Positions 52,445-64,000 of a DNA stretch of 64,000 bases are shown piece after piece. Location of the stretch: the NCBI RefSeq assembly GCF_014982975.1, contig NZ_JADCKL010000002.1, forward strand, positions 186,001 to 250,000, in the 5' to 3' direction. The stretch is from Claveliimonas monacensis (lineage in GTDB: Bacteria; Bacillota; Clostridia; Lachnospirales; Lachnospiraceae). The first letter of the stretch is position 1. Every line of letters starts with the position of its first letter. A model generated the notes under the pieces. That model did no database searches. It worked only from the letters and a program-made list of their open reading frames with translations, and had not been told where the DNA came from. A program made the translations under genes and the position numbers.

Positions 52445-53060
52445 TCACTGTTTCATACTCATTTCAAATACTTTTTTCTGCAAATCTCTGGGAAGGAAAA
52501 TCCGCCTTCTTTTCAGGTATCTGTAATGACAGAGTAGCTTATGGTTCACAAACTTCTCAAAATCCGGTTCCGGCCAGCATTCAAAAAACAGCTGGCTCAT
52601 GTCAAGCACTGCCTCAAAGAAACGGATCGCATACGCCGTGTATTCTGACCTTTCTTCCTCCGTCATCTCTCCGCTCCCGGACCGGAGTACAACGGGCCAT
52701 TTCTCAAGCGGACGGATCATATACTTCCGAAAATATTCCGCAAAATTTCTTTCAGCCTGGCTATACGCTTTCAAGACTTCATGTATATCCATACCCGCAA
52801 TATAACTCATAACATCGCGGAAGACTCCTTCTCCTTCCGTGCCCTGCCTTCGTGTATTCCCCCTGTAGCACCAAAGCATAAGCATAAAAAGAAGAAACTC
52901 GTTGTAAAACATCAGGCTGTGCAGCCCCTGTCCAGCTCGGCCATCATACGTATACTCCGCCAGTTCAAGGCATTTTTTCTCAGTCTGACTATTTTTTCTT
53001 CCCCCCTGCGGAACCAGGGATACATGCCAGCCGCCTGTTCTCTGTCTTCTCCACATACAT
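52445..53060 (-). pseudogene. Unknown helical protein, apparent frameshift near its start
   Basis: From 52992 down to 52445 the frame gives a clear protein (TEKKCLELAEYTYDGRAGQG, then LMFYNEFLLFMLMLWCYRG, ending KKVFEMSMKQ), mostly helical, no known motif. The best start, ATG 53060, overlaps the preceding stop as TGATG. It reads MYVEKTENRRLACIPGSAGG in a different frame and breaks at a run of six G and six A (mRNA sense, 53006-52992). A one-base slip there would join the two. The alternative start at 53056 in the main frame has no ribosome site and gives odd sequence. Confidence 0.5.
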
Positions 53061-53244
53061 CAGCGTAGCTCCGGCCCTTTATTTTCCAGATAGTCTTTCT
53101 TCCCGCCCGCGGCTCTGCCGCTGGCCAGAAGCTGCTCGATCTGTCCGGCGCTCTGTTCAAATGTGTCATTGCGGATCGTAATCCCATGATAAAATTTAAT
53201 TCCCCACCTGACCGGCGATAGCTGATAAAAACATCATATTTCAC
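53060..53244 (-). pseudogene. Internally deleted TIR-domain gene
   Basis: GTG 53244, nine bases after AGGAGG, begins VKYDVFISYRRSGG, the unmistakable first strand of a bacterial TIR domain. The rest of the domain is absent. From about 53205 another frame reads HGITIRNDTFEQSAGQIEQL, then LASGRAAGGKKDYLENKGPE and LR to a stop at 53060, presumably the old C-terminus. The gap between creatininase stop and this start is 65 bases. The BB loop and catalytic Glu of TIR enzymes are gone. Confidence 0.6.
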
Positions 53245-53309
53245 GGCTCTGCCCCTCCTCATCTTACTTTTCACGGTAACTTATTATACCATACGCAAAG
53301 GGAAAAGAA

Positions 53310-54023
53310 CTACTCTGCCAATATCTGCAGATAGTCTTCCACTGTCTCCACCTGGTCACGGATACTGCGCTCCAAAATCTTTTTCCCTTTTTCTCTGTCT
53401 ACAATGATATCCTGCCGTTTCGAGACGATCCCATTTCTGCTGATCTCCCTCACCGGATGCAGCTTCATAGCATGACGTCCCGCCGCTTGCCCCCCCAGAA
53501 GCTGCAGATCGTATACTCCCTCTTTGACTTCCGGATTTATGCTGGCATAGACAGATGTTTCAACCGAATCCGCATGTGCGCTGAAAACACCAAACAGTTC
53601 TTCCGCCAGTCTTCTTGAACTTTCACTGAACACATGAAGTACCATAAATTTGGTCCTTTTATACTTCATGTTTAAATGATGACATATAACCGCTGCCGCA
53701 TCCTGGTTTCCGCCATGCCCATTGATAATGACCATCAGCCTGAGCTGTGTCTCATTTTCTGTATAAGAGGCAAGGATCTCTTCCAGAAACTGCATGGCTG
53801 CGGGATAAGAGATACTGACTGTGTCTGCAAATCCACTGTGTTCCTGCGCCATGCCAAACGGAAGGGCCGGCAGGCAAACCGCCTTGTATTGCGGGTGTCT
53901 CTCCGATATGGCCCTGCAGATCTGCTCCGCCTCATATACTGCTATTTCTGTATCTGTGTCTGCCGGGATCAGGGGGCCATGCTGTTCATGGCTCCCCCAC
54001 GGCAGGAAAACTATCTTCTGCAT
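53310..54023 (-). CDS. Creatininase family amidohydrolase
   Basis: A 237-aa metal-dependent amidohydrolase. Metal and catalytic residues are in place: LPWGSHEQHGPLIPADTD (Glu13, His15, Asp22/24), INGHGGN (101-106) and SAHADSVETS (His150, Glu155). The family includes creatininase, MftE and the archaeal formamide hydrolase ArfB that acts on a GTP-derived pyrimidine. With a GTP cyclohydrolase II-like gene in the same cluster, an ArfB-like reaction is conceivable (inference). It overlaps the CYTH gene by 13 bases. Confidence 0.87.
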   Translation of the reverse strand: MQKIVFLPWGSHEQHGPLIPADTDTEIAVYEAEQICRAISERHPQYKAVCLPALPFGMAQEHSGFADTVSISYPAAMQFLEEILASYTENETQLRLMVIINGHGGNQDAAAVICHHLNMKYKRTKFMVLHVFSESSRRLAEELFGVFSAHADSVETSVYASINPEVKEGVYDLQLLGGQAAGRHAMKLHPVREISRNGIVSKRQDIIVDREKGKKILERSIRDQVETVEDYLQILAE

Positions 54024-54709
54024 ACTTCTTCTCCTTCCAGATATGTGTTGAGCTTAGGCATCTGTTCATCGCAGAACAAAATATCATTTTTCTCGCAGAT
54101 ACCTTCATACTCGCACAGTTTTCGGTACATATCGTCGCAGCTGAGACGGCTTGTCCTTTCCTCTTTCAGGCCCAGCGCCTCTGCCATCTCCTTCAGCTCT
54201 CTCTCCTCTCCCTGCTTCAGTTCCAGCTCAACGACGTGCCCATAGGGAAACAGATCGGAAGCCACCTCCACACCTCCCATATAGAATGTTTCGCGGTTTC
54301 TCTCATAGGAGGAGACTCTGGGACACTTCAGCACCTGTTCCAGCAGCAGTATGACCGCATCAATCTCTTCCGCGCTGATCTGCGCTTCGATCTCTTTTTC
54401 TCTGTGGATCTGGTCGCCGGTCAGTTCGGGGATTCTCTGCTTCCAGGTAAGAAGCGCTCCGCCGGGTTCTGTAACTGCCGGAAAGATGTCCGCAGTGCCG
54501 GGCTTTACGGTACGGACGCGCAGGCGTCCGTCTACATCTTTGCTGTAAAAAGAATACTCTGGATTGGGATTATCATACATGACCGTCAGCTCGTGCACTG
54601 CGCGCCCTGTCCTGATATAGTCTTTCCAGTATCTTGCGCGTTCTTTGAACGCCTCGTATTCTCCGTCCGTCAATACAAACCGCATTTCTCTTTCAATTTT
54701 TTCACTCAT
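54011..54709 (-). CDS. CYTH-fold (triphosphate tunnel) protein
   Basis: A 232-aa protein of the CYTH superfamily, whose members hydrolyse triphosphates or act as class IV adenylyl cyclases. The N-terminal IEREMRF stands for the E-x-E-x-K motif, with Arg for Lys. Tunnel residues recur in DGRLRVRTV, LLTWKQRI, HREKEIEA, SYERNRETFY and HVVELELK. ATG 54709 is eight bases after GGAGG and 12 bases from the stop of the preceding gene. Cyclase or phosphatase activity cannot be told apart from sequence. Confidence 0.8.
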   Translation of the reverse strand: MSEKIEREMRFVLTDGEYEAFKERARYWKDYIRTGRAVHELTVMYDNPNPEYSFYSKDVDGRLRVRTVKPGTADIFPAVTEPGGALLTWKQRIPELTGDQIHREKEIEAQISAEEIDAVILLLEQVLKCPRVSSYERNRETFYMGGVEVASDLFPYGHVVELELKQGEERELKEMAEALGLKEERTSRLSCDDMYRKLCEYEGICEKNDILFCDEQMPKLNTYLEGEEVCRR

Positions 54710-54721
54710 CGTCTTTTCCTC

Positions 54722-55618
54722 CTATGAAACTTTCTGTAATCTGCATGTAAATCTGAGAAGCTCTGCCTCCAGACATCTGATCGTCTCTTCCTTTGCGTGC
54801 ATGACCTGTTCCAGCCTTGCCTTCCCTTCCGCCGTTTCCAAAATCCCGGCGGCCTTTTCACACATGCGCAGCGCTCTCTCCGGCATCCTTTCCCTGCTGC
54901 CAAGAAGCGCGATCACCTGCTCCATCTCATCCTCTGCAAAGCAGTAGCCCTTCTCGATCCACTTGGTCAGGTACTCTCCCAAATTCTCCATATTCATCTC
55001 TGAAGTCAGGTCGATCCTGCCCTTCACATCGATCCCTTCTTCTTCAAGCGCCTTCAGCTTGCCGGGATTTCTGCTGATCACGCGGTAGGAATATTTCTCC
55101 AGACCGAGGTCGCAGAACAGGCTGGCGATCACATCGTACTCCCTCACGTCAATGACTGCGTGCCCCCGCAGGATCCTGGCCGCCTCCGCCTGCGTCTTCA
55201 TTCCGATATATCTTCCACTTTGAAGACGTCCGTGCACCTGGAGCTGGAGCTCCTCCGCCTTATAGAACAGGCCGTTCCCCTGCGCTTCCTGGGGCATGTG
55301 TACGTATATTCCGCCGTTCTCTCCGATAAACTGCAGCGCTTTCTTCCGTTCATCTTCGCAGTTGCAGTGGGAATCACCGAACATTCCAAACATGCACTCT
55401 GATCCGAACCTGAGGCAGGGTGTCATTCTCCCGAAAAGATCTGTCCTCCTGATATCTTCCAGGCTCTCCACCTGCTCGTATGTCTTCTGGTCCGTCTTGA
55501 TAAATGTCAGAAGCTCCGGGCGGGTAAACCCTGCCGGGGTCTTGTCCAGCTTTGTAACGATGGCCAGACAATTCCCCAGGTATTCGTTCTTTTCCATTTT
55601 GTATAATACATGTTTCAT
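54722..55618 (-). CDS. Divergent GTP cyclohydrolase II-like enzyme
   Basis: A 298-aa relative of RibA. The zinc ligands are kept: Cys75 in RFGSECMFG and Cys85, Cys87 in GDSHCNCEDE. The QEGRGIGL motif of true cyclohydrolase II is QEAQGNGL (110-117), so the active-site Arg is Gln. The later block LRGHAVIDVREYDVIASLF matches the family's D-x-R-x-Y/D-Y-G segment. There is no DHBP synthase domain and no other riboflavin gene, and a C-terminal helical tail of about 90 residues is extra. It probably acts on a GTP-like substrate in a different pathway. First gene of a cluster with CYTH and creatininase genes. Confidence 0.75.
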   Translation of the reverse strand: MKHVLYKMEKNEYLGNCLAIVTKLDKTPAGFTRPELLTFIKTDQKTYEQVESLEDIRRTDLFGRMTPCLRFGSECMFGMFGDSHCNCEDERKKALQFIGENGGIYVHMPQEAQGNGLFYKAEELQLQVHGRLQSGRYIGMKTQAEAARILRGHAVIDVREYDVIASLFCDLGLEKYSYRVISRNPGKLKALEEEGIDVKGRIDLTSEMNMENLGEYLTKWIEKGYCFAEDEMEQVIALLGSRERMPERALRMCEKAAGILETAEGKARLEQVMHAKEETIRCLEAELLRFTCRLQKVS

Positions 55619-55715: not shown

Positions 55716-57038
55716 TTATTTTTGTTCCAGATACCGGCAAGCCTCGCCTGCCACCTCTGCCGGATCCACCATGGAAGTCTCATAGTCTGCCACCTCGATA
55801 AAAAATACCATATCGGAAGACTCTATATAGCCTGCCAGCAGCTTATGTACTCCGTCCTGGTGCTCTGCACTTCCTGTCTTTGCCACTGTGATATCCCTGT
55901 GATACTCCTCTGCCGGATAGTATGCCCTGTAGGCATTCTGCCAGATCTGGCAGACTTCCCCCGCATTCTCCTGACTCACCATCTGTGTATATGCGGTCTT
56001 GTCTGTTTCAAGCAGGTGGGCTTCCGGGGCCCTGCCGTCGTGGACTACCGCGCTGACGATCCTGCACATATCCACGGGGCTGACCTGCGTCTGCCCCTGC
56101 CCGATCAGAGACCATGTGCTGGAAAAGCTGCCGCTCCCGTCAAAGTCTGTGGACGATCCCTGACAGATCAGGCCGTCTACATCTTTGGCCTCCGGCTCTC
56201 TGGAAAATCCCATGTTCTCCAGCATCTCCCATGACTTGTCGGCCTGCGGATCCAGAACCTGCAGGATCTGTTCTCCGTAGTAGATGTTGCAGGATACCCC
56301 CATAGCACTCTCTATGTCGTGTACGCCCCGCTGCGTGATACAGGTGATATCCCCTGCCGGCCTCTCGTACCTCCCGTCGCATCTCACCTTCTCATGCGCC
56401 AGATCCTCATCCAGTTCATTGAGGAGCAGCGTCGTCACGATCTTCATCGTGGAGCCGGGCGTGACAGACAAAAAGTTTTTATTGAGAAGGGCCCCCTCCG
56501 GGAGCCCTTCCACTCCATCCGGCACCGCTCCGGGAAGGGAAACGGCAGCACGTATCTTTCCCGTACCTGCCTCCATGAACAGGGCACTCCCGCTTCGGAT
56601 CTGCCTGTCCTTCATATACTGATAAATGTCTTCATTCAATCCCCTGTCTATCGTGAGAACAACCGTCTCCCCTGTTCCCTCCAGGGAGTCCGCACCTTCC
56701 GCGGCCCGGTATTGTTCCGGGTGCAGCAGGCTGCCCTCCATTAACAGCGCGGCTGTATTCTCTGCATAAGGGACATCCTTCAGCTCCCCCACCAGGCTGT
56801 ATGTGTCCCCATAGCCTCGAAATTCCCGGCTCCACAACACTTCTCCGTTGGTATCCACGATCTCTCCGGTACTCCCGGGAATATCGCCGGCCCACTCCAT
56901 ATACGCCTCTGTGGAGAGGCTTTCCACCGCCTCTCCTGCGCCGGCAAAAAGCCGCCCCGTTCCTGTGATAAGGATCGCTTCGAGAAGGATCGCCGCAGCC
57001 AGGATGATCCACTTTTTCTGATTTGTTTTACGTATCAT
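55716..57038 (-). CDS. Penicillin-binding transpeptidase (class B-like, short)
   Basis: A 440-aa peptidoglycan transpeptidase with one N-terminal membrane anchor. Active-site motifs: Ser196-x-x-Lys199 in TPGSTMKIV, Ser249-x-Asn251 in GVSCNIYY, and Lys387-Thr-Gly in VAKTGSAE. The N-terminal pedestal is short, like that of PbpA of actinobacteria rather than FtsI. It overlaps the FtsW-like gene by 11 bases, the typical SEDS/PBP pairing. Last gene of the block. Confidence 0.9.
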   Translation of the reverse strand: MIRKTNQKKWIILAAAILLEAILITGTGRLFAGAGEAVESLSTEAYMEWAGDIPGSTGEIVDTNGEVLWSREFRGYGDTYSLVGELKDVPYAENTAALLMEGSLLHPEQYRAAEGADSLEGTGETVVLTIDRGLNEDIYQYMKDRQIRSGSALFMEAGTGKIRAAVSLPGAVPDGVEGLPEGALLNKNFLSVTPGSTMKIVTTLLLNELDEDLAHEKVRCDGRYERPAGDITCITQRGVHDIESAMGVSCNIYYGEQILQVLDPQADKSWEMLENMGFSREPEAKDVDGLICQGSSTDFDGSGSFSSTWSLIGQGQTQVSPVDMCRIVSAVVHDGRAPEAHLLETDKTAYTQMVSQENAGEVCQIWQNAYRAYYPAEEYHRDITVAKTGSAEHQDGVHKLLAGYIESSDMVFFIEVADYETSMVDPAEVAGEACRYLEQK

Positions 57039-58341
57039 ATTCTTTCTCCTTTCTCAGTTTTTCAAATGCCGGACTAAAGCTGACAAGCACTCCTCCCCAG
57101 AGAAGAAAGGAGCTGATCATGTTGGAGCCGCCCTGGCTGATAAAGCTTGCGCATATTCCCGTAAACGGTAATATGTCCAGACCGCCGCCCATATGAAGGA
57201 CATACTGTGCGAACAGGACCACCGCCGACAGAAGACCCATCATATAGTGAAAGGGCGACAAGACCGGAGTCCAGAGGAGCTGGACCAGAAGCAGGATCAG
57301 CAGACCCGCCAGCAGGATCAGCACCGGCACCCCGAAAATGGCCGTCAGCACGTTTACCCCAAAGTCTGTGGACGAGGATGTGACCCATGTGGCAGAGACT
57401 GTGTCACCTCCCGCCCCCATTCCCTTCAGCCCGCCCCGGACAATGGCCATCACAGGCTGGTAGTGCTGCCCTGTACCGCTATCCAGCGCATGGAAGCACT
57501 GGAAGAACCGGGCCCGCACATAGGGGACGCAGATCACCGAAGCCACTACCCCTATGGCGGCGGCCAGGAAGATCTCCGCGCTGACCATCCAGTCGTCAAA
57601 AAGAAAGTAGGAGGAGACGACAAGGAGGATCACAAGGACAGCTGCATTGCCCAGATCCCGGCAAGCGGCAAGCACAACCGCTGATCCGCCGCAGAGTGCC
57701 ATATAGATGTATGACAGCCTGCGGTTGATCCGTATCTTATAACAGCACGCTGACAGGAGGATCACCGCCACCTTCAGACTCTCTCCTGGCTGTACTGTCA
57801 CGCCGGCAAAGGAAAGCCAGGCGTAACTGCCGTTGATGCCGCCCCCGCTCACTACTCCTGCCAGAAGACAGAAAAGCTGTACGGCGATCAGAGCTGCCGT
57901 GCCGCCGATCACCCACCTTAGTTTCCTGTCGTCCAGCCTGACCCTGCACAGGAAATAATAGAGGATCATACAGAAAAATCCCGCCGCCGCAAAGAAAATA
58001 TGTCTCTTCAGGTTTTCCCCGCCATTGTAGAAGGCCTGCAGGAGCATGCCGTGGTAGAGGAGCATGCCAAACACTGCCGCGCATCCGGCCAGGCCGGACC
58101 TCATATGTATGCCCCAGAGGACGACCGCCGTCTCCGCCAGGAGTGTCACGGCCAGGCCGGCAAGAAGAGGCCCTGCCGCCTGATACTTTTCCGGGGAATA
58201 GTATAAAACTCCTTCCACCTCCGTCCATTTGGCATAGGAAAGCTCGCCTCCTGTCCCGACCAGGATCACGGCAAGGCTCCCTACCTGGTACAGCGCGGTA
58301 AGGATATATACCGCCCACTCGATTCGTCTCATCCTCTTCAT
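57028..58341 (-). CDS. FtsW/RodA/SpoVE-type SEDS glycosyltransferase
   Basis: A 437-aa polytopic protein. The loops GGGINGSYAWLSFAGVTVQP plus GESLKV and the C-terminal SQGGSNMISSFLLWGGVL are typical of SEDS proteins, as is GKG-type GGLKGMGAGGD. It has about 12-13 helices; three or four extra N-terminal helices precede the core, as in the actinobacterial RodA. It would polymerise glycan strands together with the PBP encoded next. It overlaps the FHA gene by four bases. Confidence 0.9.
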   Translation of the reverse strand: MKRMRRIEWAVYILTALYQVGSLAVILVGTGGELSYAKWTEVEGVLYYSPEKYQAAGPLLAGLAVTLLAETAVVLWGIHMRSGLAGCAAVFGMLLYHGMLLQAFYNGGENLKRHIFFAAAGFFCMILYYFLCRVRLDDRKLRWVIGGTAALIAVQLFCLLAGVVSGGGINGSYAWLSFAGVTVQPGESLKVAVILLSACCYKIRINRRLSYIYMALCGGSAVVLAACRDLGNAAVLVILLVVSSYFLFDDWMVSAEIFLAAAIGVVASVICVPYVRARFFQCFHALDSGTGQHYQPVMAIVRGGLKGMGAGGDTVSATWVTSSSTDFGVNVLTAIFGVPVLILLAGLLILLLVQLLWTPVLSPFHYMMGLLSAVVLFAQYVLHMGGGLDILPFTGICASFISQGGSNMISSFLLWGGVLVSFSPAFEKLRKEKEYDT

Positions 58342-58790
58342 TCGTGGTACACCCCCCTGTAAAATGTGATCTGGTATGTTCCAAAGTTAATGTTCATGCC
58401 ATGCAGAAGCTTCCTCTCAGAATCCCCCTCCAGCAGCACCTCCTCCGTCTGTCCGATCTTTGTCAGAACAGGGGTATCTGTCAGATTGCGGATATAGAAC
58501 CATCCGTCCTCCCTCGCACACACCTGCACGTGGAGAGGCTTTATACCCCAAAGGCACCCTCTGTACTCCCCGCGATCCGCTCCCGGAATCCCCAGCTTCA
58601 GGTCCGCGTTCTTCCCTGTCCCGATGAAGATCTCTCCTGCCTCCACCTGATAGATCCGCCCGTCCGGCAGGATGAAACAGGCCGCGAAATGGCGCCTCAC
58701 ATATTCTTCTCTTCTTGCGTCGCTCTCCTGCCGGGCTGCCCAGAATAAAAATCCGAACATTCCGGCCAGCAGCAATATCTTTAAAATCAT
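58338..58790 (-). CDS. Membrane-anchored FHA-like protein
   Basis: A 150-aa protein: one N-terminal helix (LKILLLAGMFGFLFWAA), then a domain with FHA features. FIGTGKNADLKL stands at the first FHA loop, KPLHVQVCAREDGWFYIRNL at the His and core strands, and TPVLTKIGQ near the end. The phosphothreonine-binding Arg of classical FHA (G-R-x) is not kept. ATG 58790 after GGGAGAAAGG. It is coupled to both neighbours (ATGA overlaps). It probably links signalling to the SEDS/PBP pair. Confidence 0.65.
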   Translation of the reverse strand: MILKILLLAGMFGFLFWAARQESDARREEYVRRHFAACFILPDGRIYQVEAGEIFIGTGKNADLKLGIPGADRGEYRGCLWGIKPLHVQVCAREDGWFYIRNLTDTPVLTKIGQTEEVLLEGDSERKLLHGMNINFGTYQITFYRGVYHE

Positions 58791-59956
58791 CCTTTCTCCC
58801 TCCTCTCGCGCCTCGCTCTGCGCACATCTTCCAGGATCTCTGTCAGCAGGAAGCAGACTGCAAACTGCAGGAGAAAGCAGAGAAAATCTCCCGACACATG
58901 AACTGTGTACTCTCTTGCCCCCACTTCCTGGATCTGGATCATAAAAGCAAGCCATGACAGCGAGGCGATCAGTCCGGCTACTTTCCCGGCCAGCAGGATA
59001 TTCCCCCTTTTTTCTCTCCTCTTCTTCATGCTTACTGAAGTCTCCCGGCTGCCGCCCGGCGCGCTGGTGTTCCTGCTCTTCATCTCTCTTTTTGTCCCTG
59101 CATACCAGGACAGACAGTCCAGCACGCTTCTTCTGTCCCCTCCTGACCGGTCACAGCGCCTCCAGGCCTGTTTCCTGATCTCAGCCGCCCGGTAGCGCTC
59201 CCACAGAGCGTCAAGTTCCTTATCTTCCGCCCCGCGCACGACCTTGTCGCCTTCAAGGACAATTCTCCTGACCGCCTTTCCCCCCGCGTAGCCGCTCTGC
59301 TCCAGTCCGGCATATGTCTCGCGGTCCATTGCATTCAGTTCGTAGTTATTGCACTCCCTCATAGTCTTGGCATTTGTGTTCCAGGAGATATACTTTCTCA
59401 TCTTAGGCGGAAACAGCTTCAGCGCTGCCATGACTGTCCCCTCCCTCTCTTCTCTGCCACCCGGAACGACATGAAGGACCTGGCATCTCCATCCTTCCCC
59501 TACATTGTCAAAAACAGCCTCAAAATACTGCTTCTGCACCTCTTCCGGCAGTTTCTTTTCTGCGGCAGGAGCGCCCTTCCCTGCCGTCTCCAGCCTCAGG
59601 GGACGGCGCGCTTCCTTTCCCATATCATCCGGTGTCACGCAGTGCCTCAAACGGGGGATCTTTCCAGGCTCCCGCAGCAGCTTGTCCGCCGCCTCGTCAT
59701 CAAGGATATAGGCATGGACAAAGCTCTGTCCCCGCGCTTCTCTTTTGCTGCCTTCCGGAAGGAATGTCACAAACGAGAGCAGGTACTCTCCCTCCTCCGT
59801 CGGCATCCCGCGGATACTCGTCTCCCTCTGATCCGTGTTCAGCACTTTGTCCAGATATTTCCCGTATCGCATAGGATCGACCTCCGGATCACAAAAGATA
59901 AATCCATATCCCTTTCCATCACCTTGCTGCCCGTACATGCACTCTCTGATCTTCAT
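58787..59956 (-). CDS. GAP1-like GTPase-associated protein
   Basis: A 389-aa protein. The N-terminal half (MYGQQGDGKGYGFIFCDPEV, then SFVHAYILDDEAADKLL) resembles the GAP1-N domain of GTPase-associated protein 1, followed by a middle domain (LKLFPPKMRKYISWNTNAKT). A Lys/Arg-rich linker leads to two C-terminal membrane helices (VAGLIASLSWLAFMI; FLCFLLQFAVCFLLTEIL) and a basic end. It lies directly after a zinc-ribbon GTPase gene, the pairing described for GAP1 in bacterial conflict systems. Family match by eye only. Confidence 0.55.
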   Translation of the reverse strand: MKIRECMYGQQGDGKGYGFIFCDPEVDPMRYGKYLDKVLNTDQRETSIRGMPTEEGEYLLSFVTFLPEGSKREARGQSFVHAYILDDEAADKLLREPGKIPRLRHCVTPDDMGKEARRPLRLETAGKGAPAAEKKLPEEVQKQYFEAVFDNVGEGWRCQVLHVVPGGREEREGTVMAALKLFPPKMRKYISWNTNAKTMRECNNYELNAMDRETYAGLEQSGYAGGKAVRRIVLEGDKVVRGAEDKELDALWERYRAAEIRKQAWRRCDRSGGDRRSVLDCLSWYAGTKREMKSRNTSAPGGSRETSVSMKKRREKRGNILLAGKVAGLIASLSWLAFMIQIQEVGAREYTVHVSGDFLCFLLQFAVCFLLTEILEDVRRARRERREKG

Positions 59957-59971
59957 AGCCTTCTCCCCTTC

Positions 59972-61087
59972 CTAAAACTCATATCTGTACAACCCCTGTC
60001 TGGCAAGGATATATTTTAAAGGATCATAGATATTCTCAGCCTTCTCCAGGTTCAGCGCTATTCCTCCGTCCTCCCGCGTTGTTCCCGAGGAGATAAGGAA
60101 GTAGCCCACGTCTTTTCTGTTCTCGCTGATCACGCTGGCTACTGCCGGGTGGATACTTCGGATAATGCTCTTGTCCAGGATCATTCTCTTCACCTTCTCA
60201 TAGTAACCGGCTTCCGCCAGTTTCTTCTGCCGCTCGAAGTATCCGCCGGTTATGACCGGACGCCCGCGGACCATCAGAGGGCTGCTGCTGCATCTGTCCC
60301 GGAGCTTATCAGACTTGGTCATGGTAACAGCCACCGGAATCCGCCCCTTTGAGTATGTCATAAGGTTCGACAGCCACTCTCCATCGATCTCTGTCTCTTT
60401 GCTGCCATCGATCATGTACACGATTCCATCGCAGCGGTCCACTCTTGACATATGCCACTCATAGTCCGTGATCTGCTCGTCACCGCTCTGTGTCTCCAGC
60501 TCCCCCGGCGTGTCGATCAGGAGCAGCCTGGCCTCCTTATCCCCTCTCTCTCCTTTGATCTCCAGCACGGTGGTAAGCCCGTCTCTGGCCCCCATATTTG
60601 TGACCGTCTCCCGGGTGAGCGGCTGGGTCTCAACCCGCTCTGCCCCCAGGCACTGACACTTTAACAGGTTTCTCCCGTACACGCAGGCGTGCCTCCATGC
60701 CGTCTTCCCGGCGGATGGTCTCCCCACGACACCTACGATGTACGTGTCATAGTAACCCGACCATGCCGGCAGATATTCGATCCTGTTCTCCTGCTCCAGG
60801 CAGTGCGGGCAGATCCTCTTGCCGCTCCTTAAAGTAAACTCCCACTTTTCGCGGCCCCGTTCCGCCTCCACCTTAAACAGCATCGGAAGGCCCCGCATTT
60901 TCTCAGGCTTTTCCGTAATATGGATCTGATACGTCTTTTTATCCTCCTCACGGACCGGAAACACCTGATAATCTCCCAGGATATTGCGGACCGCCTTCAC
61001 AATAAGATTGAGCTGCGGAATATAGTACCACCACTCATCCACCGGCCTCAGACAATTCGTACACACTGCTTTTCCATATTTGATCAT
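59972..61087 (-). CDS. Zinc-ribbon GTPase (double-GTPase-like)
   Basis: A 371-aa GTPase. Cys9/Cys12 and Cys93/Cys96 (ICPHC) frame an N-terminal zinc domain. The G domain has P-loop GRPSAGKT (122-129), Walker B LLLIDTPGE (188-196) and TKSDKL (257-262) at the base-specificity motif. It resembles the DO-GTPase group that accompanies GAP1. ATG 61087 follows GAGAGGAG. The long spacing between P-loop and DTPGE is unlike Ras-type GTPases. Confidence 0.72.
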   Translation of the reverse strand: MIKYGKAVCTNCLRPVDEWWYYIPQLNLIVKAVRNILGDYQVFPVREEDKKTYQIHITEKPEKMRGLPMLFKVEAERGREKWEFTLRSGKRICPHCLEQENRIEYLPAWSGYYDTYIVGVVGRPSAGKTAWRHACVYGRNLLKCQCLGAERVETQPLTRETVTNMGARDGLTTVLEIKGERGDKEARLLLIDTPGELETQSGDEQITDYEWHMSRVDRCDGIVYMIDGSKETEIDGEWLSNLMTYSKGRIPVAVTMTKSDKLRDRCSSSPLMVRGRPVITGGYFERQKKLAEAGYYEKVKRMILDKSIIRSIHPAVASVISENRKDVGYFLISSGTTREDGGIALNLEKAENIYDPLKYILARQGLYRYEF

Positions 61088-61106
61088 TGTTTTCTACTCC
61101 TCTCTG

Positions 61107-61772
61107 TTACATGTAAGCGATATAAATACCGCCAGTTTCCATGGCCTGCCCTTTTTCCAGAACCCGTCTCTGCTCCTGGGGCATGATCACCGTCATCTGT
61201 CGGGTTTTCCCGTCATACAGGATCTGCATCTGTTCTGTGATATGCCACAGTCTGACCTTCGCCATATCCTCACAGAATTCCCTGTTTCCGGAGATGATCC
61301 TGCACAGCGCCATCTGTTCCGCCTCCTGCACCATATCTCTGTCGCACCGCAGGAAACAGGACCGCAGACGCTCTTTGATCTTCCAGAAAAGCGGTGTGAT
61401 ATCTCCGCTGTATCCTCCCCCGCTCCTGAACGAGCGATAGGGTCTTTTCCGCTTTTTTGTCTCGTAGATCCGCCCCTTCAGGAGGATCTGAAACCGCACT
61501 GCAATGAACAGCAGTACGGAAGGCGCCCCTGTCAGAAAGTAAATGAAAGGATACCACTCCAGGCTCCAGAACCACTGGCACAGCGGGCGCAGCACAATAC
61601 CGGGCACTCCGTTATAAATATATGTCACGATCCATCCGTACACAGTCTCCGTGTACGGCATGCCGCTCTGCCTCAAAAACGCAGGCACGTAGTGGAACAA
61701 CGCTGCGATCAGCAGGATGTGTGAAATCTTTCTCAGCACTCTGTTATTTTTCTGCCGTTTTCTCTTTTTCAT
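61107..61772 (-). CDS. Membrane protein of unknown family in the GTPase block
   Basis: A 221-aa protein: very basic start (MKKRKRQKNNRVLRK), helices around 18-32 and 70-98 (YPFIYFLTGAPSVLLFIAVRF), then a soluble cytoplasmic part of about 120 residues with basic and aromatic stretches. No known motif. GGAG lies ten bases before ATG 61772, and the GTPase gene follows after 19 bases. Confidence 0.65.
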   Translation of the reverse strand: MKKRKRQKNNRVLRKISHILLIAALFHYVPAFLRQSGMPYTETVYGWIVTYIYNGVPGIVLRPLCQWFWSLEWYPFIYFLTGAPSVLLFIAVRFQILLKGRIYETKKRKRPYRSFRSGGGYSGDITPLFWKIKERLRSCFLRCDRDMVQEAEQMALCRIISGNREFCEDMAKVRLWHITEQMQILYDGKTRQMTVIMPQEQRRVLEKGQAMETGGIYIAYM

Positions 61773-61799
61773 CTGTCCTCATCTCCTTTGCAATCCTTT

Positions 61800-62504
61800 T
61801 TAAGCAGGATCAGAATACTGTATCAAAAACAGACTCTGATCGTCTTTTTCCTCCTGTCTCCTCAATACCTCTTCCACATTCTCCATCTTCTGGACCAGCA
61901 CCTGTCTGGCCAGATCTGTAAGTTCTCTCTCCCTATAGAACCGGGCCATGGCTCCATCCGTCATCATGCCGACCCGCTCAGGCCTGTCAATGACTCCTGT
62001 CCGGAAATGTCTCTCCATGTTCTGGCTCGTGGTGGCAAAGGTATACTTTGGCGTGATCCCATGCCGGGGATGGGAGACGACCTGCACCTGTCCGTCCTGC
62101 GTCTGAAAGATCAGCCCGTCTCCTATGTGTATCCATCTGATCTTCCCGGTGTCCCTTTGAGCGGCCAGCATCATCAGGGTGGAGGCAAACTCTTCCCTGT
62201 CTGCTCCCGCCTGCTCTGACAGATCACGGATCGTATCTCGCAGCAGGTCAATGCACCTTCTCTTTACTTTCTCATCTGACCACAGCTCTTCGTCCGGCAT
62301 CCCCGCCAGGCAGCTACCCAGCGCCTCCTGGACCTTCCTCGCCCCCTGCACAGCGTATTTTTTCTTCGTCACTCCGTCTGACAGGGAAAATACCTGCCTG
62401 TCCCCGCTGATCAGGGTGTATTCTACATCTTTGCATTCTCTCCTCTCCTTTCCCTGGCTGATATAGCAGGAAATCTCATACTGTCGCATCTGTCTGTTCT
62501 TCAA
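61800..62504 (-). CDS. PP2C-like protein phosphatase
   Basis: A 234-aa metal-dependent Ser/Thr phosphatase-like protein. Metal aspartates are visible at SDG (Asp43), GDG (Asp129), TDG (Asp183) and DDQS (Asp222). The usual first motif (R-x-x-N-x-D) is not seen, so it is a divergent member. The start is taken at TTG 62504, eight bases after AGGAG; ATG 62489 has no ribosome site. It is the first gene after the terminator at 62596, hence the probable start of the eight-kb block. No protein kinase gene is in the window. Confidence 0.75.
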   Translation of the reverse strand: MKNRQMRQYEISCYISQGKERRECKDVEYTLISGDRQVFSLSDGVTKKKYAVQGARKVQEALGSCLAGMPDEELWSDEKVKRRCIDLLRDTIRDLSEQAGADREEFASTLMMLAAQRDTGKIRWIHIGDGLIFQTQDGQVQVVSHPRHGITPKYTFATTSQNMERHFRTGVIDRPERVGMMTDGAMARFYRERELTDLARQVLVQKMENVEEVLRRQEEKDDQSLFLIQYSDPA

Positions 62505-62595: not shown

Positions 62596-62631
62596 ATGCC
62601 GCACGTGAGTTCTTTTTCTCACGTGCGGCAT
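62596..62631 (-). terminator. Strong terminator
   Basis: Perfect 14-bp stem ATGCCGCACGTGAG / CTCACGTGCGGCAT with an 8-base loop. T-runs on both sides (TTTTT on the minus strand after the stem, TTTTTT on the plus strand). It ends the transcript of the gene at 62664 and separates it from the PP2C gene. Confidence 0.9.
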
Positions 62632-62663: not shown

Positions 62664-64000
62664 CTAAAAACCCCTCAGTATCTCAGGGATATGCGCGATC
62701 AGTACTCCGTCCGTCTCCTTGTAGTCGTGGAAATGTCTGTACTCCTGGTACACGGACACACCCTCGTACAGATCAGCAAAGTATCTGCACATCTCCTCAT
62801 CCTGCTGCTCCTCTATATCCCTGCGCGCGTCCTCCATCACCTGTTTCCACTCCCCGGAGAATGGCCCGCGCTCTTCCCGGATATGCGCAAGCAGCCTTTT
62901 CACCCTGATCCAGCTCTCCGGCATCTCATCGCCCTGCATGGCAAAGCCGGCTTCTATCTCACTCACCCTGTGCCGCATGACCTGCTCCTTATTTTGACAC
63001 AGCACGCCAGCTCTTGCATGAAGCCACACAGAGACCTGGTCCAGATGATCCAGTTCTGTATCTTCCTTCCGTATCTTCTCCATTTCCTTACTCCACTGCT
63101 CACCGGGAATTCCCCTGAGGGCACAGCCCTCCCCGCGTTCACAGTCCACCATACAGGGATGCCGCTTTCTTCCCGCATCCTTATACCCGGTCTGGCGGCC
63201 ATACTTGATCCTCTCCAAACCAAAACGGTCGTAAGCATCCCAGCCTCTGGCCGCCATGCTGGCCATCCATCTGCGGTGTTCCAGAAAAAGCAGTTCTCTA
63301 TAAAGAGGGGTATCCTCCCCTCCGTCAAGCACTCGCTTCTCAAACAGATCCGCCGCTCTTGCCTCATTCTCCTCGTGAAGGCCACAGTAAAACAGCTTAC
63401 AGTCCAGGTGCATGGCATTTTCTATCGACGACTGATAACGGTAAATGTTTCTGCAGAAGCTGTCGAATCTGGCGCTGTCCTTCCCGCTTGGTATTCCCTC
63501 ATACGCCTGATCAATGAGGAAGGCCTGCTTGATCAGCTTTATATAGAATTCCTCGTCCACCTGACTCCTGCTCCGCCCGAAGGAGCACAGCACAGCATTC
63601 CCTTCTCTTCTCTCCTCATTCTTTTCCGCACAGCAGCCGATAAATACCTGTTCTTCTCTGCCTGACGCCAGCCTGTCGGCCAGCTCTCCTACTCGCATCC
63701 TGTTTCTCTCCATGTTCCTGTCGGCCAGAAGATAGTAGCGGACCGGATCCCCCAGTCCCTCCTCTTCTTTCTCAAGAAACCGTCGCCATGTCAGAAAATC
63801 CACCTCTGCCAGAGGAGAGTACAAAAGTCCGTATTTCCCCGTCTCGTTATTTCTGTCCAGAACAGCCATCTTCTCCAACGCCGGCATTTCCTTCTTCTTC
63901 TCTCTCTTCCTGTATTCCGGATTCTCGCAGGTGAGATAGATATGCAGCCTCTTATCCAGCATCTGCCCACAGCATCCGAACACGGCCCGAAAGGCGGCGT
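62664..64000 (-). CDS. RyR-like domain protein (N-terminus off window)
   Basis: At least 445 residues; the frame is open to the window edge (AAFRAVFGCCGQMLDKRLHI before the first in-window start), so the gene begins outside. In the C-terminal half LFLEHRRWMASMAARGWDAY and KRHPCMVDCERGEGCALRGI resemble the H-x-x-W...GW and K-x-HP blocks of RyR domains, found in bacterial conflict proteins together with NAD- or ion-sensing parts. The beginning, with RLHIYLTCENPEYRK, could be the end of a TrkA-N-like Rossmann domain. Assignment by pattern only. Confidence 0.5.
   Translation of the reverse strand, partial: AAFRAVFGCCGQMLDKRLHIYLTCENPEYRKREKKKEMPALEKMAVLDRNNETGKYGLLYSPLAEVDFLTWRRFLEKEEEGLGDPVRYYLLADRNMERNRMRVGELADRLASGREEQVFIGCCAEKNEERREGNAVLCSFGRSRSQVDEEFYIKLIKQAFLIDQAYEGIPSGKDSARFDSFCRNIYRYQSSIENAMHLDCKLFYCGLHEENEARAADLFEKRVLDGGEDTPLYRELLFLEHRRWMASMAARGWDAYDRFGLERIKYGRQTGYKDAGRKRHPCMVDCERGEGCALRGIPGEQWSKEMEKIRKEDTELDHLDQVSVWLHARAGVLCQNKEQVMRHRVSEIEAGFAMQGDEMPESWIRVKRLLAHIREERGPFSGEWKQVMEDARRDIEEQQDEEMCRYFADLYEGVSVYQEYRHFHDYKETDGVLIAHIPEILRGF

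Follow-up and report, generated by a model that had tools for sequence, protein, structure and literature searches.

The question raised by this locus is whether genes of cell wall synthesis and the gene of a zinc-ribbon GTPase, found side by side in Claveliimonas monacensis, form one system, and what such a system would do. The genes lie at 55716-62504 of a stretch of 64,000 nucleotides (contig NZ_JADCKL010000002.1, positions 186,001 to 250,000; hereafter the window). The initial annotation had described seven genes in one direction with overlaps or gaps below 100 bases, and the open reading frames (ORFs) are as stated, all on the minus strand: the gaps are of 27 nucleotides (nt) between the PP2C-like phosphatase and a transmembrane (TM) protein, 19 nt between the latter and the GTPase, and 15 nt between the GTPase and a GAP1-like protein, and the overlaps are of 4 nt between the GAP1-like and an FHA-like gene, 4 nt between the FHA-like and a SEDS gene, and 11 nt between SEDS and a class B penicillin-binding protein (PBP). 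The seven-gene run is real, and its core is made of six genes: TM protein, GTPase, GAP1-like, FHA-like, SEDS and PBP. We judge it rather probable that this core makes peptidoglycan by a synthase of its own, governed by a GTPase switch held at the membrane; both its role and the step of control are predicted from sequence.

A search of 397 genomes of the family Lachnospiraceae with the GTPase recovered the window copy and two others, in genomes G401 and G087 (26% local identity), both in like clusters. The order is TM protein, GTPase, GAP1-like, FHA-like, SEDS, PBP in the window; SEDS, PBP, TM protein, GTPase, GAP1-like, FHA-like in G401; and FHA-like, one SEDS-PBP ORF, TM protein, GTPase, GAP1-like in G087. 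The three loci are rotations of a single cyclic gene order. In alignments, the identities of the two other loci to the window are 24 and 23% for the GTPase, 25 and 23% for the GAP1-like protein, 24 and 14% for the TM protein, 22 and 23% for the FHA-like protein, 29 and 28% for SEDS, and 31 and 30% for the PBP; being as low as 14-31%, they indicate that the linkage outlasted much change. A search with the GAP1-like protein in 61 genomes recovered only the window copy. In G087 SEDS and class B PBP are read as a single ORF of 1,051 amino acids (aa; L014:14941-18096), for which a sequencing error is possible; at the two remaining core loci the genes are separate and overlap.

The alternative that the genes do nothing jointly, and became neighbours by accident or hitch-hiking, is scarcely credible. 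In its favour, the instances are few and the kinase/PP2C part, discussed below, is truly separable; on the other hand the six genes are linked at three of three loci despite a rotated order and such low identities, and the chance of finding a SEDS gene within 5 kb is roughly 0.02 per locus (5 SEDS genes in 3.0 Mb). The loci being related, they do not count as three separate origins. The claim of the initial annotation that the GTPase and GAP1 genes are linked with FHA-like, SEDS and PBP otherwise than by accident is strengthened by this recurrence at all three loci found of the GTPase subtype.

The core is rare. A hidden Markov model (HMM) of the three GTPase sequences matched 10 of the 397 family genomes at E 0.01, with three SEDS-linked GTPases (window genome, G087 and G401) and three classical DO-GTPases; at E 0.001 it matched 7 of 391 genomes of a class-wide sample, with a SEDS link only in the genome of the window. 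Weak matches in G159, G151, G152, G521 and G701, unrelated by eye, were left out of the count, as was G014 (a 45-aa frame with a stop). Within the genus the core is found in one genome of 11, that of the window; the GTPase is found in one of the three genomes of the genus of G401 and in the only one of the genus of G087, namely in these two genomes themselves. A scan of genome contigs with the GTPase alignment, outside which the window genome possibly lies, gave 65 pattern matches and one relative, taken to be that of G401. The initial annotation had asked whether the seven genes travel together in many Clostridia; they do not, even the core being restricted to 3/397 genomes of the family, 1/391 of the class-wide sample and 1/11 of the genus.

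The set recurs beyond chance: SEDS or PBP genes stand at three of three loci of this GTPase subtype and at none of six control loci of classical DO-GTPases (L033-L038, searched with the core HMMs at E 0.01 over 8.3-9.5 kb on each side). Seven classical loci were found, and the one of G780 was omitted from the controls because it sits on a 3.4-kb contig; the control loci were labelled tubulin-theme by eye, because their 1,100-aa proteins show a glycine-rich motif. The linkage was to be called accidental if GTPase and GAP1 homologues were rarely beside SEDS/PBP genes: this describes the classical DO-GTPases (0/6 adjacent), not the present subtype (3/3 adjacent). When 30 FHA loci of relatives, with flanks of up to 1.5 kb, were searched with the core HMMs, neither SEDS nor PBP was detected at any, so that the FHA-SEDS link is special to the core.

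The GTPase itself can be placed. Profile-profile comparison (hhalign) with six classical DO-GTPases gives a probability of 99.5 and an E of 4e-23, and the three core loci all have the motifs GKT and DxxGE, with a Glu in Walker B, and two CxxC pairs from which two N-terminal zinc ribbons are predicted. According to Kaur et al. (2020, eLife 9:e52696, PMC7159879) DO-GTPases are marked by zinc ribbons and by the Glu of Walker B, and two is the usual number of ribbons in those of GAP1-N2 type; by its sequence our GTPase groups with them. No TM segment is predicted in any of the three GTPases, and against the PDB their profile has a single match, 6g6o (E 5.5e-4), which is uninformative.

The GAP1 link is weaker than the DO-GTPase link. 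The GAP1-like gene is directly downstream of the GTPase at all three loci, and its product matches six classical GAP1 proteins with an hhalign probability of 83 (E 9e-6, 150 columns); it counts 389-466 aa versus 772-964 aa for the GAP1 of the six classical loci, the aligned portion being N-terminal only and the long remainder of GAP1 absent. The core GAP1 HMM does not recover the classical GAP1 proteins, which profile-profile comparison alone does. One or two C-terminal TM segments are predicted in the three GAP1-like proteins. The GAP1-N2-type systems also have an FNIII-repeat component; profile comparison of the TM protein with the protein of the same slot in the classical loci gives no match (probability 0.1). 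The profile check suggested in the initial annotation came out in part: Pfam recognises the PP2C_2, SEDS and transpeptidase domains in the window run (Table 1), as well as MMR_HSR1 (4e-6), while DO-GTPase2 (26.1 bits for a cut-off of 27) and GAP1-N2 (E 0.066) stay under the cut-offs and FHA has no Pfam match in the run; profile-profile comparison supports all three.

The core resembles the GAP1-N2-type DO-GTPase systems by a zinc-ribbon GTPase with DxxGE, a downstream GAP1-like gene with C-terminal TM segments, and a membrane setting. It departs from them in several ways: it has no tubulin/vWA, HSP70/GrpE or kinase/PP2C/vWA theme, its GAP1-like protein has half the length and not the three-domain (N, M, C) layout, the slot before the GTPase holds a TM protein that does not match the classical one, and its partners are SEDS, PBP and an FHA-like protein. 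In PMC7159879 the themes of the GAP1-N2 systems are tubulin, HSP70 and kinase/PP2C; FtsW, RodA, penicillin, transpeptidase, SpoVE and RyR are absent from its main text, and FHA appears there for other systems. HSP70-like and kinase ORFs do occur above the core, in the window genome only and within a separable module.

In a tree of 25 SEDS proteins of six genomes (two partial matches, G007 and G010, of 36 bits, being omitted), the core SEDS of the three loci group in a single clade (100/100; 200/200 bootstrap trees) and are separated from the 22 housekeeping SEDS. All 25, the three core SEDS included, keep the Asp of the putative catalytic column; this Asp was equated by motif, not by alignment to FtsW, with D297 of Escherichia coli FtsW, the putative catalytic Asp according to PMC8765783. 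The motifs SxxK (STMK), SxN (SCN) and KTG are present in the three core PBPs. The core SEDS and PBPs look catalytically intact, and polymerase and transpeptidase activities are predicted for them.

Among the SEDS loci fetched from the window genome, the core PBP profile best matches a PBP that lies beside another SEDS (104 bits versus 32 and 30). This housekeeping pair (L039:9944-12881), whose 515-aa PBP is the nearest of the three matches, is like the core in that SEDS adjoins PBP, and unlike it in having no FHA-like or GTPase neighbour in the ORFs read. More generally the core pair is like the SEDS/class B PBP synthases FtsW-FtsI and RodA-PBP2, a polymerase being paired with a transpeptidase and catalytic residues being kept. 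At the opposite of these, it is an extra and fast-evolving pair, without EE(L/M)G, with GTPase and GAP1-like partners of its own in the operon.

The FHA-like protein, which has an N-terminal TM segment at the three loci, was compared by hhalign with 19 FHA domains: the probability is 50 and P 1.6e-4. With 65 of 68 columns aligned the score is 27.1, while 200 column shuffles reach 16.6 at most and eight other alignments 16.3 at most. This supports a diverged, degenerate FHA. The positions that contact phosphothreonine in FHA domains are by eye not kept in any of the three proteins, the window copy retaining a His; the altered FHA loop noticed in the initial annotation is so found in all three copies. 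Against the PDB the FHA-like profile matches TB39.8 best, though weakly (E 0.5), and unrelated chains come nearly equal (E 0.56 and above). TB39.8 is FhaA of the actinobacterial pstP locus. Pfam finds no FHA domain in the whole window genome, versus 40 of 61 genomes in a sample of relatives.

The initial annotation had no kinase, and this apparent lack comes from the edge of the window, which cuts the gene: the ORF at 62664 continues on the contig (C12) into a protein of 820 aa with a Pkinase domain (2e-11), directly above PP2C, and ends 159 bases above it. The absence of a kinase is consequently rejected. The kinase has no predicted TM segment and no PASTA match. Above it come ORFs for a RyR-domain protein (3e-35), a 457-aa protein of no clear family (helical by eye) and a transglutaminase-like protein (9e-10), then further above an HSP70-like ORF (DnaK models at 4e-4, far below cut-off) and a TIR protein (1e-12, one TM segment). 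This mix of RyR, kinase, HSP70 and TIR looks like a separate signalling module. The same-strand run, from the TIR-TM protein to the kinase, occupies about 248664-256962 of contig C12 (L006/L007), and a KptA/Tpt1 RNA 2'-phosphotransferase gene (4e-38; L007:7013-7999) adjoins the TIR gene.

A hairpin lies between the kinase and PP2C genes; the scan lists it on the plus strand only, and on the minus strand it is also followed by a T run. The folding energy of this stretch is -38 kcal/mol (z -8.3), equalled by none of 200 shuffles. If this hairpin ends transcription, PP2C and the core would form their own transcript.

The 457-aa protein offers a way to follow the module, being present in 18 of the 397 family genomes. 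At ten of its loci a kinase or PP2C stands within about 1 kb in eight cases (L085, L086, L088, L089, L091, L092 and L093 by Pfam, L087 by phmmer); none is seen at L084 and L090, where the 457-aa protein is near a contig end and the other neighbours are outside the Pfam scan. HMMs of the six core proteins match at none of the ten loci. At L086 PP2C (E 3.5e-31 to that of the window), the 457-aa protein and a kinase follow each other, and G401 has both modules, each on a contig of its own (C8 and C116). With phmmer no relative of the kinase, PP2C or the 457-aa protein is found near the cores of G401 and G087 (L012-L015), a test that is weak for kinases because it also failed to detect the ones that Pfam recognises at L088, L089 and L091. 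PP2C adjoins the core in the window only, one of the three core loci.

PP2C as a defining part of the system, as first proposed, is therefore rejected, the module occurring elsewhere without the core. PP2C probably comes from the kinase module, where it fits better, with the kinase and the 457-aa neighbour; kinase and PP2C look like a module separable from the core.

These data bear on another explanation, that of a wall operon controlled by phosphorylation, as at the actinobacterial pstP locus, in which kinase and PP2C would act through FHA on SEDS/PBP and the GTPase would be secondary. Such a locus (pstP-rodA-pbpA-pknAB-fha) is described in PMC6554272, and there are points of likeness: SEDS, short PBP and an FHA-type protein are together, the window genome adds PP2C and a kinase as neighbours, and TB39.8 is the best, if weak, PDB match. 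We nevertheless find this explanation improbable. Unrelated chains match the FHA-like profile almost equally; the phosphothreonine positions are, by eye, kept in none of the three copies; the kinase, unlike the membrane PASTA kinase of the pstP locus, has neither a predicted TM segment nor a PASTA match; a possible terminator separates it from PP2C; and kinase and PP2C were not found at the two other core loci (by phmmer, with the weakness given above), while the core holds a GTPase/GAP1-like pair that sets it apart from the pstP locus.

We return to the proposed GTPase-gated peptidoglycan synthase. SEDS and PBP would polymerise and cross-link the wall as a pair; the GAP1-like and TM proteins would hold the GTPase at the membrane; an envelope signal would change the state of the GTPase, which would switch the synthase; and the FHA-like protein could be an adaptor that has become independent of phosphate. 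The neighbouring kinase/PP2C module may supply a second control in the genome of the window. The likely use would be on-demand remodelling or repair of the wall, besides three or four housekeeping SEDS. If true, a GTPase-linked mode of control would be added to the SEDS/PBP synthases.

Some observations weigh against this reading. Only three loci of the core are known, and the alignments of the GAP1-like and TM proteins are weak. The core SEDS sit on long branches (1.9-3.0), which according to a warning of the tree program may be joined falsely. The motif EE(L/M)G, which follows the Asp in all 22 housekeeping SEDS, is missing in the three core SEDS, so that their activity or control may differ. 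Lastly, the patchy distribution and the defence genes near the cores would also suit a role in conflict.

In that case the core would be a DO-GTPase-type conflict system, anti-phage or self-limiting: an invader would cause the GTPase to free a SEDS/PBP effector, and misplaced wall synthesis would halt growth, entry or lysis. A conflict role is predicted for systems of this kind by Kaur et al. (PMC7159879), and it agrees with the spread (1/11 in the genus, 3/397 in the family) and with the fast evolution (14-31% identity). The surroundings point the same way: Cas6 and RAMP genes follow the G401 core (L012:16838-17809; L013:2646-6357), the G087 core is preceded by an Mrr-type nuclease and followed by a PD-(D/E)XK transposase-family gene, with a 20-repeat CRISPR array about 13 kb away on the same contig (L014:1-1316), and a TIR protein lies above the kinase module of the window. 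Conversely, SEDS and PBP, whose catalytic sites look intact, are not known to act as toxins, the GTPase has no match in plasmid and phage records, and PADLOC has no match for the GTPase, GAP1-like, TM and SEDS proteins (the FHA-like protein and the PBP being outside this test); it assigns PP2C to PDC-M21C (3.7e-7) and the kinase to many kinase models. On balance we hold a conflict role to be doubtful.

The GTPase-gated synthase could have a wider bearing. In the papers examined, gene neighbourhoods are the sole ground for the role given to GAP1-N2/DO-GTPase systems; here the partners have standard assays (lipid II polymerisation, transpeptidation, fluorescent D-amino acid labelling), so that the target of the GTPase switch can be directly asked for. 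As a speculation that we would not press, the whole GAP1-N2/DO-GTPase class might consist of envelope machines, private and switchable, with immunity not its main role, GTPase and GAP1 at the membrane driving a tubulin-type filament, an HSP70 (actin-fold) or a wall synthase; the SEDS/PBP variant, with its defined enzymatic output, would be the GTPase-gated counterpart of FtsZ-FtsW and MreB-RodA. Literature searches gave no description of SEDS/PBP with DO-GTPase/GAP1, supplements and most subscription papers, which may hold such loci, being outside their reach; the view that the two themes had not been described in one operon stands, nothing closer having been met.

Table 1. Features of the gene run and of its upstream border (positions in the window).
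Feature	Position	Strand	Characteristics
Short class B PBP	55716..57038	-	440 aa; one N-terminal TM segment; STMK, SCN, KTG; Transpeptidase 8e-16 (Pfam)
Diverged SEDS (FtsW/RodA-like) polymerase	57028..58341	-	437 aa; PF01098 1.4e-26; catalytic-Asp column kept
FHA-like protein	58338..58790	-	150 aa; N-terminal TM segment; phosphothreonine-contact positions not kept; hhalign versus 19 FHA domains
GAP1-like protein	58787..59956	-	389 aa; two C-terminal TM segments; hhalign and sub-cut-off Pfam
Zinc-ribbon DO-GTPase-like protein	59972..61087	-	371 aa; GKT, DTPGE, two CxxC; hhalign
Membrane protein	61107..61772	-	221 aa; of no known family; slot before GTPase; predicted TM; no Pfam match over cut-off
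PP2C-like phosphatase	61800..62504	-	234 aa; PP2C_2 9.6e-25
Possible terminator, 14-bp hairpin	62596..62631	.	in the 159-nt kinase/PP2C gap
Kinase gene, 3' part	62664..64000	-	of an 820-aa ORF continuing to contig C12:251126; accessory, outside the core

On the other side of the run, the window carries at 52445-53274 a TIR-like start (by eye; Pfam: none) in one frame and a second ORF in another, possibly a broken gene. Nearer to the core, at 53310-55618, 97 nt past the PBP and on the same strand, Pfam recognises a GTP cyclohydrolase II-like ORF (6e-14) and a CYTH ORF (1e-5), which are followed by an ORF that is creatininase-like by eye.

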